A stretch of DNA of 64,000 nucleotides from Novosphingobium kaempferiae (GTDB taxonomy: Bacteria > Pseudomonadota > Alphaproteobacteria > Sphingomonadales > Sphingomonadaceae). The position numbers were made by a program, and so were the translations under genes. The stretch lies in contig NZ_CP089301.1 in NCBI RefSeq assembly GCF_021227995.1, forward strand, positions 1,302,001 to 1,366,000. Direction: 5' to 3'. Below the pieces are notes generated by a model that was not told the origin of the DNA, did no database searches, and worked only from the letters and a program-made list of their open reading frames with translations. Positions 56,865 to 60,780 of this stretch are shown piece by piece; the stretch's first letter is position 1; each line of letters begins with the position of its first letter.

Positions 56865-56948
56865 CGTCATTGCGAGGCGGCGAAGCCGTCGAAGCAATCC
56901 AGCGGCGCCGGACCAGTTGCGGATTGCTTCGCTCCGCTCGCAATGACG
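56865..56948. repeat. REP-like palindrome, type A, copy 7 (variant)
   Basis: CGTCATTGCGAGGCGGCGAA... with right arm GCTCCGCTCGCAATGACG. The arms are more diverged, with an insertion, but the ends CGTCATTGCGAG and CTCGCAATGACG are kept. It lies between the 3-hydroxybutyrate dehydrogenase gene and the asd stop. Confidence 0.85.
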
Positions 56949-56955
56949 GACGGGC

Positions 56956-57987
<1,032 letters not shown>

Positions 57988-58043
57988 CTATGCGTCTCCT
58001 ACTTCATTAGTGGAGCAGCGCGAGGGTCTTCGTGTCTTCATCT

Positions 58044-58073
58044 GGAGAACCCCGCGTGCCGTTTGCTGCGGGG
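58044..58073 (-). terminator. Attenuator terminator hairpin upstream of asd
   Basis: On the minus strand CCCCGC (58073-58068), a 12-nt loop and GCGGGG (58055-58050), extendable by an A-T pair, then TTCTCC. Weak T-run, consistent with a conditional terminator. Its left arm can instead pair with the leader (see the attenuator entry). Confidence 0.7.
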
Positions 58074-58093
58074 TGGGTGTCGTTAGGTGCAGT

Positions 58094-58171
58094 TCAGTAC
58101 ATGCACGCCGACGCCCACCGCGCGGTCACGGTCGGTTTCGGGGTGGTAATAATGATCGGCATCACGAACAT
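58094..58171 (-). CDS. 25-aa leader peptide of asd
   Basis: ATG at 58171, stop TGA at 58096-58094, 26 codons. It starts MFVMPIIITTPKPT, with three consecutive Ile codons (ATC ATT ATT) and two Thr codons (ACC ACC), then further Thr at 14 and 16, and ends CMY. Ile and Thr are end products of the asd pathway. The gene begins about 35 nt after a CATAAT -10-like element at 58213-58218. No strong Shine-Dalgarno is visible. The peptide has no other recognisable function. Confidence 0.6.
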   Translation of the reverse strand: MFVMPIIITTPKPTVTARWASACMY

Positions 58172-58212
58172 GGACGCGCCACTAGCGGCAAGCGCAGGCG
58201 GTGTAAACGGGA

Positions 58213-58218
58213 ATTATG
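58213..58218 (-). promoter_or_regulatory. Possible -10 element of the asd leader
   Basis: CATAAT on the minus strand, just after the gltX stop. The upstream -35 region is weak. It would place the start near 58206, giving a 35-nt leader before the 25-aa peptide. Confidence 0.35.
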
Positions 58219-58233
58219 TTGCGCGCCGAAGCA

Positions 58234-59565
58234 TCAGGTCCGGGACGACAACCGCTCCAGCGCAGCATCGCGGCCGATCAGCGGCAGCAGCGCCGCCATG
58301 TCTGGACCATGCTCCATCCCAGTAAGCGCCTGACGAAGCGGCAGAAACAGCGCCTTGCCCTTGCGCCCGGTGGCATCCTTCAACGCCCCGGTCAGCGCCT
58401 TCCAGATCCCCGCGTCCCAGGCCAGCGAACCCAGCATTTCCGCGGCCTGCGCGCAGTAGGCGCGGTCCTCTTCCGACAGTTCCGGCGCCGCCACCGGCCC
58501 GGTCACGACGGCCCACCAGTCCGCCGCCTCGGCCATGCGCGAAAGGTTCGGGCGAACCGCCTCCCACGCCGCCGCATCCATACCCTCAGGCAGTCGCGAA
58601 GCCACTGAATCGAAAGGTAAAGCATGGACGATCGCGGCGTTCACACGCTCCAGTTCCGCCTCGTCGAACCGCGCCGGAGCACGGCCGAACCGCGACAGGT
58701 CGAAGGCCGCCGCCAGTTCCTCCAGACCCAGCGAAGGATCGACCGGATCGCTCGTCCCCAGCCGCCCGAGCAGCGCCACCAGCGCCTGCGGCTCGATGCC
58801 CGAATCGCGGAAATGCGCGGCCCCGAGCGAACCCAGCCGCTTCGACAGCTTGCCCTCGGTCCCCACCAGGAGCGCTTCGTGCGCGAACTGCGGCACCGGC
58901 GCGCCGAGCGCGGTGAACATCTGCACTTGCGCCGCCGTGTTGGAGACGTGGTCCTCGCCCCGCAGGATGCTGGTGACACCCATCGCCACGTCGTCGATCA
59001 CCGAGGGCAACATGTAGAGCCACGATCCGTCGGCGCGGCGAACGACCGGGTCGCTCATCTGCGAAGCCTCGAATTTCTGGGCCCCTCGCACCCCGTCCTC
59101 CCACGCAATCGGCTCGTCATGGTCGAGCAGGAAGCGCCAGTGCGGCAGGTCTCCGGCAGCGATCTTCGCGGCCTTCTCCTCTGTCGAGAGCTTCAGCGCC
59201 GCGCGGTCGTAGATCGGCGGAAGTCCACGCCCCAGCAGCACCTTTCGGCGCAGATCCAGTTCCTGCGGCGTCTCCCAGCACGGATAGACGCGCCCCGCCG
59301 CCTCAAGCTGCGCGAACGCCTCCTCGTAGATCGCGAAGCGCGCGGACTGGCGCTCCTCGCCCTCGGGATGGAGGCCCAGCCACGCCAGATCGGCGCGGAT
59401 CGCCTCGACATACTCCTCCTTCGAGCGCGCCGCGTCGGTATCGTCGATGCGCAGCAGGAAGCGCCCGCCGGACTGTTTCGCCAACAGGAAGTTGTGCAGC
59501 GCCGTGCGGATATTGCCAACGTGGAGGTGCCCGGTGGGCGAGGGTGCGAAGCGGGTGACGGTCAT
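58234..59565 (-). CDS. gltX: Glutamate--tRNA ligase
   Basis: 443 aa. Class I catalytic signature FAPSPTGHLHVGNIRTAL (HIGH equivalent), the tRNA-Glu recognition region and the KMSKS equivalent KLSKRLGSLGA are present. It is shorter than canonical GltX (about 470-490). Alphaproteobacteria usually carry two GltX forms, and this one may be the second, possibly with GlnRS-like specificity, but the anticodon-binding residues do not allow a firm choice. The start is close to the benE stop region. The asd leader starts right after its stop. Confidence 0.95.
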   Translation of the reverse strand: MTVTRFAPSPTGHLHVGNIRTALHNFLLAKQSGGRFLLRIDDTDAARSKEEYVEAIRADLAWLGLHPEGEERQSARFAIYEEAFAQLEAAGRVYPCWETPQELDLRRKVLLGRGLPPIYDRAALKLSTEEKAAKIAAGDLPHWRFLLDHDEPIAWEDGVRGAQKFEASQMSDPVVRRADGSWLYMLPSVIDDVAMGVTSILRGEDHVSNTAAQVQMFTALGAPVPQFAHEALLVGTEGKLSKRLGSLGAAHFRDSGIEPQALVALLGRLGTSDPVDPSLGLEELAAAFDLSRFGRAPARFDEAELERVNAAIVHALPFDSVASRLPEGMDAAAWEAVRPNLSRMAEAADWWAVVTGPVAAPELSEEDRAYCAQAAEMLGSLAWDAGIWKALTGALKDATGRKGKALFLPLRQALTGMEHGPDMAALLPLIGRDAALERLSSRT

Positions 59566-59598
59566 GGCGCCCGCGATTACGAGGCGCAGGCGGGCAGG

Positions 59599-60780
59599 TC
59601 AATTTTGCCCGTAATGTCTGGGCGCAAAAGCCCACTTCGCCGCCAGCGCCGCAAACCCCGCCAGCAGGCCCCAGAACGCCGATCCCACGCCCATCAGCGA
59701 GACGCCCGAGGCCGTCGCGGCGAACGTCAGGATCGCGGCGTCGCGCTCGGTCTTCTCGACCAGCATCTGCTCGACCGCACCGGTCAGCGGGGCGATGAGG
59801 GCGATGCCCGTCAAAGCGGCGATGGCGGTGGCAGGCATGGCGAGGAAGAACAGCACCAGCGGGGTCGAGAACAGCGCCAGCACAAGGTAGAATCCCGCAT
59901 AGATCACGCCCACGATCCAGCGCCCCTCTGCCTCGGGGTGCGCATCGGAGCCGGTGCAGATCGCCGCCGTGATCGCGGCAAGGTTGACGCCATGCGCCCC
60001 GAACGGCGCAAGCAGCAGGCTCGCGAGACCGGTCCCCAGCAGTAATTGGCGGGGCGGGGGCGCATAGCCCGCGGAGCGCAGCACGACGAGGCCGGGCAGG
60101 TTCTGCGACACCAGCGTCACCAGGAACAGCGGCAGCCCTACGCTCATCACCGCGCGCCAGTCGAACACCGGCACGACCGGCTCCAAAGCGCCCAGCAGCG
60201 GCCCGCCGTCAAGGCCCCGAAGGTCGCCGCGCAGCAGCAGCACGGCGATACCCGCGCACAGCACGAGCAGCAGCGCATAGAGCGGCAGCCGCTGGCGGGC
60301 GATGACGAAGACCACGAGCAGCACGCAGACCAGCAGCGCATCGCTTTCCAGCGTGCGGAACAGTTGCAGACAGAACGGCAGCAGCACGCCCGCCAGCATG
60401 GCCGAGGCGACAGAAGCCGGAATCCGCTCCGCCAGCCGCCCAAGCGCCGGGACCACCGCGAGCACGCACATCATCGCCGCGGCTGCCAGGAACGCTCCGA
60501 TGGCGACGGGCCACTGCACTGTCCCGGCACTCGCCACCAGCAGCGCCGCTCCCGGCGTCGACCACGCCAGCACCACCGGCACCCGCGTGCGCAGCGACAG
60601 CAGCCCACCGCAGACCGCAATGCCGAGGCATAGCGCTGTAACCGACGAACCAACCTGTGTCGTGCTCGCGCCCAGCCCCTGCATCGCCCGGACGACCAGC
60701 GGAACGATGCCTCCGAACCCCACGACGGCGGCGATGAAGGCGGAAGTCCAGGCGGCGAGCGGCGGCATTCGTAAGATCAT
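59599..60780 (-). CDS. benE: BenE-family benzoate/H+ symporter
   Basis: 393 aa, about twelve hydrophobic segments. BenE hallmarks: a start with MILRMPPLAAWTSAFIAAVVGFGG, a repeated GGLLSLRTRVPVVLAWSTPGAALLV stretch, LTGIALIAPLTG and the C-terminal SGVSLMGVGSAFWGLLAGF. The usual role is import of benzoate or related aromatic acids. No ben/cat catabolic genes are in the window, so the actual substrate is unproven. The start at 60780 is chosen over an upstream one because the extension lacks family character. It is divergent from the siderophore-type receptor. Confidence 0.9.
   Translation of the reverse strand: MILRMPPLAAWTSAFIAAVVGFGGIVPLVVRAMQGLGASTTQVGSSVTALCLGIAVCGGLLSLRTRVPVVLAWSTPGAALLVASAGTVQWPVAIGAFLAAAAMMCVLAVVPALGRLAERIPASVASAMLAGVLLPFCLQLFRTLESDALLVCVLLVVFVIARQRLPLYALLLVLCAGIAVLLLRGDLRGLDGGPLLGALEPVVPVFDWRAVMSVGLPLFLVTLVSQNLPGLVVLRSAGYAPPPRQLLLGTGLASLLLAPFGAHGVNLAAITAAICTGSDAHPEAEGRWIVGVIYAGFYLVLALFSTPLVLFFLAMPATAIAALTGIALIAPLTGAVEQMLVEKTERDAAILTFAATASGVSLMGVGSAFWGLLAGFAALAAKWAFAPRHYGQN

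Follow-up and report, generated by a model that had tools for sequence, protein, structure and literature searches.

The window, that is, the whole 64,000-nucleotide stretch of Novosphingobium kaempferiae DNA that was analysed (genome 5.70 Mb, one contig), carries on its minus strand an asd gene (56956..57984) for a 342-residue aspartate-semialdehyde dehydrogenase, which scored above the cut-offs of NCBIfam NF011456 (464 bits) and TIGR01296 (411 bits). This is a second, divergent Asd; the canonical asd copy lies at G000:C1:300865-301857, and the two are 52% identical. Among 149 family genomes 9 have a gene of the window type (at least 70% identity), and among 149 same-genus genomes 39 do, the window's own genome being included in both counts, and the closest named relative of the window's Asd is that of Novosphingobium kunmingense (85%). 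In a tree of 64 selected Asd proteins, the window type grouped with Caulobacter, Hyphomonas and actinobacterial Asd in a clade of 31 rows, while the canonical type (16 rows) and a third type (17 rows) were separate, each across a well-supported branch. In the same-genus genomes G540, G611, G655, G659 and G673, most of them draft or incomplete, only an auxiliary asd was found at E ≤1e-60 and the canonical gene is apparently missing. Just downstream of the window's asd, at 56865-56950, an inverted repeat was seen by eye (GCGAAGCAATCC ... GGATTGCTTCG and TCATTGCGAG ... CTCGCAATGA); dispersed repeats like it are known in sphingomonads.

Ahead of asd on the same strand lies a leader ORF of 25 codons followed by TGA (58094..58171, minus strand; MFVMPIIITTPKPTVTARWASACMY), the frame of which is conserved in relatives. 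Its 5' codons are ATG TTC GTG ATG CCG ATC ATT ATT ACC ACC CCG AAA CCG ACC, and the original prediction of a minus-strand 25-codon frame with three Ile and two Thr codons was exact at 58171-58094. The putative control codons, Ile-Ile-Ile-Thr-Thr (ATC ATT ATT ACC ACC; 58142..58156, minus strand), were assigned from codon enrichment in sphingomonad leaders. The codon counts do not include L210, which lacks a stop, or L182, which lacks a start, and the 48 sphingomonad leaders were reduced to 42 distinct ones. In the control regions of these 42 (421 residues before the KPT motif), Ile made up 25.7% and Thr 24.0%, against a gene background of 4.6% and 5.8% (33 long high-GC3 frames of the window), so that the two together account for 49.7% of control residues versus 10.4% in genes. 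Enrichment was 5.6-fold for Ile, 4.1-fold for Thr, 1.9-fold for Lys and 1.6-fold for Met; each leader has 2–7 Thr and Ile codons ahead of the KPT motif (median 5), and the other two frames of the leader DNA encode just 2.1 and 3.7% Thr, Ile, Lys and Met. The idea that the leader responds to every end product of the pathway, Met, Thr, Ile and Lys alike, was considered and rejected, since the sphingomonad leaders are strongly enriched for Ile and Thr only. The 18 leaders of other families contain 28.7% Thr, 13.8% Ile and 11.5% Lys, and with that share Lys might matter in non-sphingomonad leaders. Leader Ile codons are mostly the rare ATT (75 ATT and 33 ATC, versus 25 ATT and 710 ATC in genes); weaker RNA structure or slower wobble decoding can be suggested only as guesses. 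Ile and Thr occupy codons 6–10 and segment 1 of the RNA (see below) begins at codon 12, a layout that is alike in alignments A2 and A3; the predicted control codons are placed where a stalled ribosome would cover segment 1. At L210:262-388 the usual leader stop is lost and the frame continues to 59 codons; at L182/L139, which belong to one genome, the leader start is not clear.

A promoter was predicted from the sequence and its relatives at 58179..58207 (minus strand), with a -35 box TTTACA (58207-58202), a 17-nt spacer and a -10-like TAGTGG (58184-58179), the T of which is 13 nt ahead of the leader A. A -35-like box 35–38 nt and a TA 12–15 nt upstream of the leader start were present in 47 of 48 sphingomonad and 17 of 18 other leaders, and both elements occurred in 0.6 and 0.9% of shuffled upstream DNA; exact TTTACA or TTGACA was found in 42/48 and 8/18, respectively. 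A sigma-70 consensus scan did not pick up the predicted leader promoter. A Shine-Dalgarno-like word lies upstream of the leader start in 9 of 66 leaders. Judged from the promoter spacing, transcription would begin on the leader ATG or no more than 2 nt from it, and the leader ORF is predicted to be leaderless. Leaderless mRNAs are common in Caulobacter (375 in the portion of PMC4117421 available), and the S. meliloti trp leader is described as leaderless in the accessible part of PMC10117765.

Four segments were delimited on the minus strand: segment 1 (58124..58138, AAACCGACCGTGACC), from the pair counts of A2 and the 1:2 region of the window (-13.3 kcal/mol); segment 2 (58110..58123, GCGCGGTGGGCGTC), with segment 1 or 3 as partner, from the 2:3 fold and the pairing over 27 loci; segment 3 (58068..58081, GACACCCACCCCGC), with partner 2 or 4, from sequence, pairing and fold; and segment 4 (58050..58056, CGCGGGG), with partner 3 or 5, from 3:4 pairing over 27 loci. 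The terminator-like CCCCGC-N12-GCGGGG hairpin of the original prediction is present (CCCCGC at 58073-58068, 12 nt, GCGGGG at 58055-58050, minus strand); its distance to the asd ATG (57984) is 65 nt, not 60. The predicted fold of the 128-nt leader comes to -49.5 kcal/mol (z -2.73; 199 of 200 dinucleotide shuffles were less stable) and contains the 2:3 antiterminator (-31.5 kcal/mol in the window), with the leader stop codon in the tip of the 2:3 hairpin; the 3:4 region of the window reaches -14.8 kcal/mol. On A2, which comprises the 27 loci where the leader had been noticed and only these, 87.7% of 1:2 cells and 97.9% of 3:4 cells are paired (slid controls 40–54%). Taken together the two helices are 92.5% paired, with double changes at 6 pairs, and 0 of 500 shuffles reached as high. 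The 2:3 core is paired to 93.7% over the 27 loci (slid controls 40–50%; 0/500 shuffles as high), with double changes at 2 pairs (4 cells); this double-change pair count was reached by 21/500 shuffles and the pair-type count by 497/500. RNAalifold predicted 1:2 and 3:4 unaided from 42 sphingomonad leaders, with 3 of 13 pairs double-changed, and the covariation term in the run on A3 was small (-0.22). Across these alignments the mutually exclusive 1:2, 2:3 and 3:4 pairings are conserved as predicted helices. The claim that GCGCGGTGGGCGTC (58123-58110) can pair with GACACCCACCCCGC (58081-58068) is borne out by the conserved 2:3 pairing.

The small ORF could also encode a peptide that acts in trans, as reported for peTrpL, with RNA structure being secondary. 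The C-terminal leader residues are partly conserved (KPTRxRGAV), and a precedent exists in S. meliloti (PMC7298713, as far as that source was available). The conserved residues coincide with RNA segments 1 and 2, however, and the window's clade has lost RGAV and kept 2:3 through changes on both strands, seen by eye as GGTGGG with CCCACC (in L151, GGTCGGTGTC with GACATCGACC), which makes a trans-acting peptide very improbable.

Relatives were collected via the Asd protein, not via the leader. The covariance model R1 was built from 27 training rows, the window among them; in the window's genome it matched the window at E 5.8e-12, and the next match had E 0.26. The leader is present at 38/38 assessable of the 39 same-genus loci with window-type asd, a total made up of the window, 28 of the 29 loci L149-L177, which match R1 (L174 starts at a contig end), and 9/9 of L207-L215, which also match; among these at least L158, L170 and L213 repeat R1 training rows. 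By eye, the leader ORF was seen ahead of 9/9 family loci. In the wider search, for which the upstream regions of 27 of 80 asd loci were read, the leader was legible at 20 of 23 further non-actinobacterial, non-Burkholderiales loci (L065 is from the same genome as L010), including Caulobacter, Asticcacaulis, Hyphomonas, Sphingosinicella and a Reyranella bin. No leader was seen in the three actinobacterial upstream regions and the one from a Burkholderiales bin that were inspected, and the related asd loci L040 (identical to L178), L041, L046, L179-L181, L183 and L184 are without such a leader. Canonical asd had no R1 match in 11/11 same-genus genomes checked and, among 19 class loci, a single weak one (L199, E 0.006). 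That match (L199:1305-1418) contains a small Thr/Lys-rich frame, MTTTATKTTGKKTGS. The comparison across sphingomonads called for by the original prediction thus found the frame, the Ile/Thr codons, the antiterminator and 3:4 conserved, also beyond sphingomonads.

R1 was also run on 385 class genomes, 51 of which had a match at E ≤0.01; this is a rough figure, as 8 candidates were scored per genome, so that real ones are missed, and there are false matches at this threshold. Of 57 rows, 50 were examined: 24 lie before asd (5 of the window type, 19 of the third type), 12 before thrS and 14 before neither, and all 22 rows with E <1e-5 precede asd or thrS. In other alphaproteobacterial families, Thr-rich leader ORFs with a similar layout precede thrS at L132, L134, L138, L142, L144, L147, L227-L230, L234 and L236; 9 of these 12 align from residue 1 of a ThrS of about 400 residues and L134 matches TIGR00418, and at L144, L227 and L234 the short ThrS query aligns about 1 kb past the leader, which fits a full-length ThrS with a start that is not fixed. 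Examples of leader peptides are MNAMRQNPSTTTTTTASGGRSCGRAR (L229, thrS) and MMRFATKTTTTKTTTFGGPARTCA (L123, asd), and four genomes (G198, G313, G377 and G409) have one leader before asd and one before thrS. Third-type asd loci were gathered through R1 searches and have leaders by selection. In the R1 search of 149 family genomes, ten matches had E <1e-10, namely the 9 known asd, which are training rows, and L255, a third-type asd with the leader MSQPIVTRIITKTPAPADVLWRAR. The original prediction was right that the leader precedes asd, yet the gene is the second paralogue and not the canonical one, and thrS of other families has a related leader.

GC-rich DNA easily forms hairpins, and R1 yields the odd false match: the next one in the family search, in G146 (E 1.1e-5), is followed by neither asd nor thrS. 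A chance ORF over a GC-rich stem is nevertheless hardly credible, because relatives found through the Asd protein keep the frame, the Ile/Thr codons with their enrichment, and the paired stems.

In the window the 3:4 stem is followed by TTCTCC, a poor U-run, and a simple terminator scan of 57000-60000 (loops 3–8, 5 T in 8 required) called none; over 62 of the 66 leaders the mean T content after 3:4 is 2.95 in 8. Judged by its sequence, the window's 3:4 hairpin is a poor intrinsic terminator. A good U-run stands after 3:4 in the thrS relatives (mean 5.7 T in 8, 9 loci), for example TTTTCTTTT after the stem ACGACGGGGCC in L229; third-type asd leaders have 3.2 T in 8 there (17 loci). These hairpin values come from 9/9 thrS loci (the 12 except L144, L227 and L234) and 17/20 asd loci (L127, L240 and L246 dropped; segment 4 of L131 looks misplaced). 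For the window, the odds that 3:4 termination plays a part are about even.

Past the 3:4 hairpin a C-rich stretch, segment 5, follows in most leaders; it mirrors segment 3 and continues into an anti-Shine-Dalgarno sequence. In the window, segment 5 was placed at 58009..58026 (minus strand, CCCTCGCGCTGCTCCACT) from duplex and alignment, its 5' part being complementary to segment 4 and its 3' part to the asd Shine-Dalgarno region; segment 6 (57992..58003, minus strand, AGTAGGAGACGC) was placed from sequence and contains the asd Shine-Dalgarno AGGAG (58000-57996). Since segment 5 has two possible partners, arm 4 and the Shine-Dalgarno region of asd, stalling may affect translation besides or instead of termination. 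Identical regions were merged for the local Shine-Dalgarno and duplex tests, which gave 61 loci. The 4:5 duplex of the window was calculated at -19.6 versus -13.0 shuffled, 2 of 100 shuffles being as good; over all loci it beat shuffles with a mean z of -2.5, and 48/61 were at ≤5 of 100. On A4 (62 sequences) 4:5 is 91.2% paired (slid controls 46–72%), with 13 cells changed on both sides (0/500 shuffles). Other covariation measures of 4:5 did not exceed shuffles (the double-change pair count was reached by 257/500, the pair-type count by 124/500), and RNAalifold on A4 predicted no consensus pair.

The Shine-Dalgarno is held tighter than in shuffles (mean z 1.67; 26/61 loci at ≤5 of 100); the opening energy of the window taken alone is unremarkable, 21/100 shuffles being as high. 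In local folds of the window, opening costs 4.8 kcal/mol with segment 4 unavailable versus 2.3 with segment 4 available. Freeing segment 4 cut the local opening energy by a median of 4.75 kcal/mol, by more than 1 in 61/61 loci; mean release in the controls was 2.17 kcal/mol with segment 4 shuffled and 0.71 kcal/mol with the intervening DNA shuffled. Local release exceeded shuffled intervening DNA in 54/61 loci (≤2 of 40), and shuffled segment 4 in just 29/61 (≤2 of 40; window 4 of 40); a shuffled segment 4 is often nearly as effective because any G-rich strand competes for the C-rich segment 5. Among the relatives, release by segment 4 exceeded shuffles in 9/17 third-type asd and 5/9 thrS loci. 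Whole-leader folds covered 65 of the 66 leaders (L007 omitted). With crude ribosome masks, in which the 3' half of segment 1 stayed free to pair with segment 4, median release was 0.37 kcal/mol (>1 in 24/65, < -1 in 7/65), and with the ribosome at segment 1 it was 1.4 kcal/mol (>1 in 42/65, < -1 in 7/65; window 4.5 vs 2.7). In L042, one wrong-direction case, segment 3 seems to fall under the OFF mask. The evidence for a translational arm is moderate, gating of the Shine-Dalgarno in the folds being strong locally and modest or weak on the whole leader; we regard such an arm as somewhat better than an even prospect.

A purely transcriptional classical attenuator, with 3:4 as terminator and an incidental helix over the asd Shine-Dalgarno, would account for the textbook 1:2/2:3/3:4 layout and for the U-runs of the thrS relatives. 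It is rather doubtful for the window, where the tail is poor; conservation past the supposed stop point also extends to segment 5 and its match to segment 4, for which a switch acting on transcription alone has no evident use. The opposite possibility is a purely translational attenuator, with a 3:4 helix that is no terminator and merely keeps segment 4 from segment 5; the poor tail and the gating fit it, but the 3:4 region of the window folds well, thrS relatives have a U-run and gating on the whole leader is modest or weak, and it appears unlikely. The name 'Thr/Ile-type transcription attenuator' of the original prediction is upheld in its first part by the conserved frame, codons and stems; 'transcription' is perhaps half of it, in view of the poor tail and the Shine-Dalgarno evidence.

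Rfam searches at gathering thresholds found a tRNA elsewhere in the window only and nothing in five relatives; on 57950-58260 at E ≤10, three matches far below the cut-offs were obtained, none of them a leader family. The enterobacterial thrL-thrABC attenuator (Rfam Thr_leader) has a Thr/Ile-rich leader peptide and alternative hairpins. The present leader resembles it in its Thr/Ile codons, alternative hairpins and downstream aspartate-family gene, and differs from it in preceding asd alone, in the predicted leaderless start, in a probable Shine-Dalgarno relay and in the absence of an Rfam match. ermC is a translational attenuator. By analogy with it, and with the ileS T-boxes and the actinobacterial LEU element, a ribosome or tRNA state would decide whether a hairpin hides the Shine-Dalgarno; unlike in those systems this would be combined here with a classical 1:2/2:3/3:4 attenuator. 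An alphaproteobacterial ilvIH/ilvB attenuator was reportedly described by Vitreschak et al. in 2004, a paper cited in PMC1273637. It is likewise a case of classical ribosome-mediated attenuation with Ile codons in the same class, and differs in the operon and in having Ile and Val codons. An ilvL attenuator of Caulobacter is given in PMC4117421, where the part of the text available names nothing beyond a rho-independent terminator, and the LEU element and ileS T-boxes are treated as Shine-Dalgarno-sequestering elements in the available part of PMC1262725.

In the accessible part of PMC10117765, the S. meliloti SEP5 is described as a small ORF that is translated and contains six Thr and three Lys codons, 'possibly a leader peptide'; it lies in the 5'-UTR of a gene called aspartate dehydrogenase by the authors; it differs from the present leader in being reportedly restricted to Sinorhizobium, and no RNA structure is described there. 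The S. meliloti rnTrpL/peTrpL is likewise a leaderless leader ORF in an alphaproteobacterial attenuator, for Trp, and a segment 5/6 relay is not mentioned in the parts available of PMC10117765 and PMC7298713. The cysS uORFC-8-2 motif of Rhodobacterales, a proposed ribosome-mediated attenuator, precedes an aminoacyl-tRNA synthetase gene, as the thrS leaders here do, and differs in its Cys codons and in the order (PMC8632094, available portion). In the available parts of PMC1273637, PMC2965389, PMC8632094 and PMC4833913 the word asd is absent, and no such asd or thrS leader was found by term. Searches of the open PMC literature turned up no Thr/Ile leader of asd in alphaproteobacteria; subscription papers and supplements (such as the Caulobacter CDS tables of PMC4117421) lie outside this search and may list the leader. 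Within that literature the view that the mechanism is not established for asd in alphaproteobacteria holds, and the nearest published item is the one-paragraph suggestion on SEP5 in the portion of PMC10117765 available. The kind of attenuator is known; the asd target, the predicted leaderless start and the probable Shine-Dalgarno relay were not found described there.

From the elements, their conservation, pairing, partial covariation and codon enrichment we infer a sensor of Ile and Thr that works through stalling, termination and release of the Shine-Dalgarno. Control by a ribosome that depends on Thr and Ile is highly probable on these sequence comparisons, and the leader is likely, with slightly less assurance, to be a ribosome-mediated Thr/Ile attenuator of the second asd with the full mechanism as follows. 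The supply of charged Ile- and Thr-tRNA would set the expression of the second Asd. From the promoter in the gltX-asd gap, the mRNA would start at or 1–2 nt before the leader AUG and the peptide would be read leaderless. With plentiful Ile- and Thr-tRNA, the ribosome would reach the stop codon in the tip of 2:3, so that 2:3 is blocked and 3:4 forms; transcription would then partly stop, and segment 5, pairing with segment 6, would cover the Shine-Dalgarno of asd. When Ile or Thr is scarce, the ribosome would stall on the Ile/Thr run just ahead of segment 1 and segment 2 would pair with segment 3; segment 4 would be free to pair with segment 5, the Shine-Dalgarno would open, and asd would be transcribed and translated.

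More tentatively, and at slightly less than even probability, the leaders may represent an undescribed, class-wide alphaproteobacterial RNA family, in which leaderless Thr(/Ile) ORFs and a six-segment relay control auxiliary Asd and thrS, not the housekeeping asd. In such a relay one stalled ribosome would prevent 3:4 and, via 4:5 against 5:6, open the Shine-Dalgarno of the gene. If the proposed control is true, alphaproteobacteria would use a leader peptide to control an early branch point on the way to Thr, Ile, Met and Lys. This suggests a reason for the presence of two Asd enzymes in some of them, of which one would be constant and one induced on Thr or Ile shortage. If the Shine-Dalgarno relay is real, a single stalled ribosome would act at both levels, transcription and translation, by means of an element that occurs in many families of the class.
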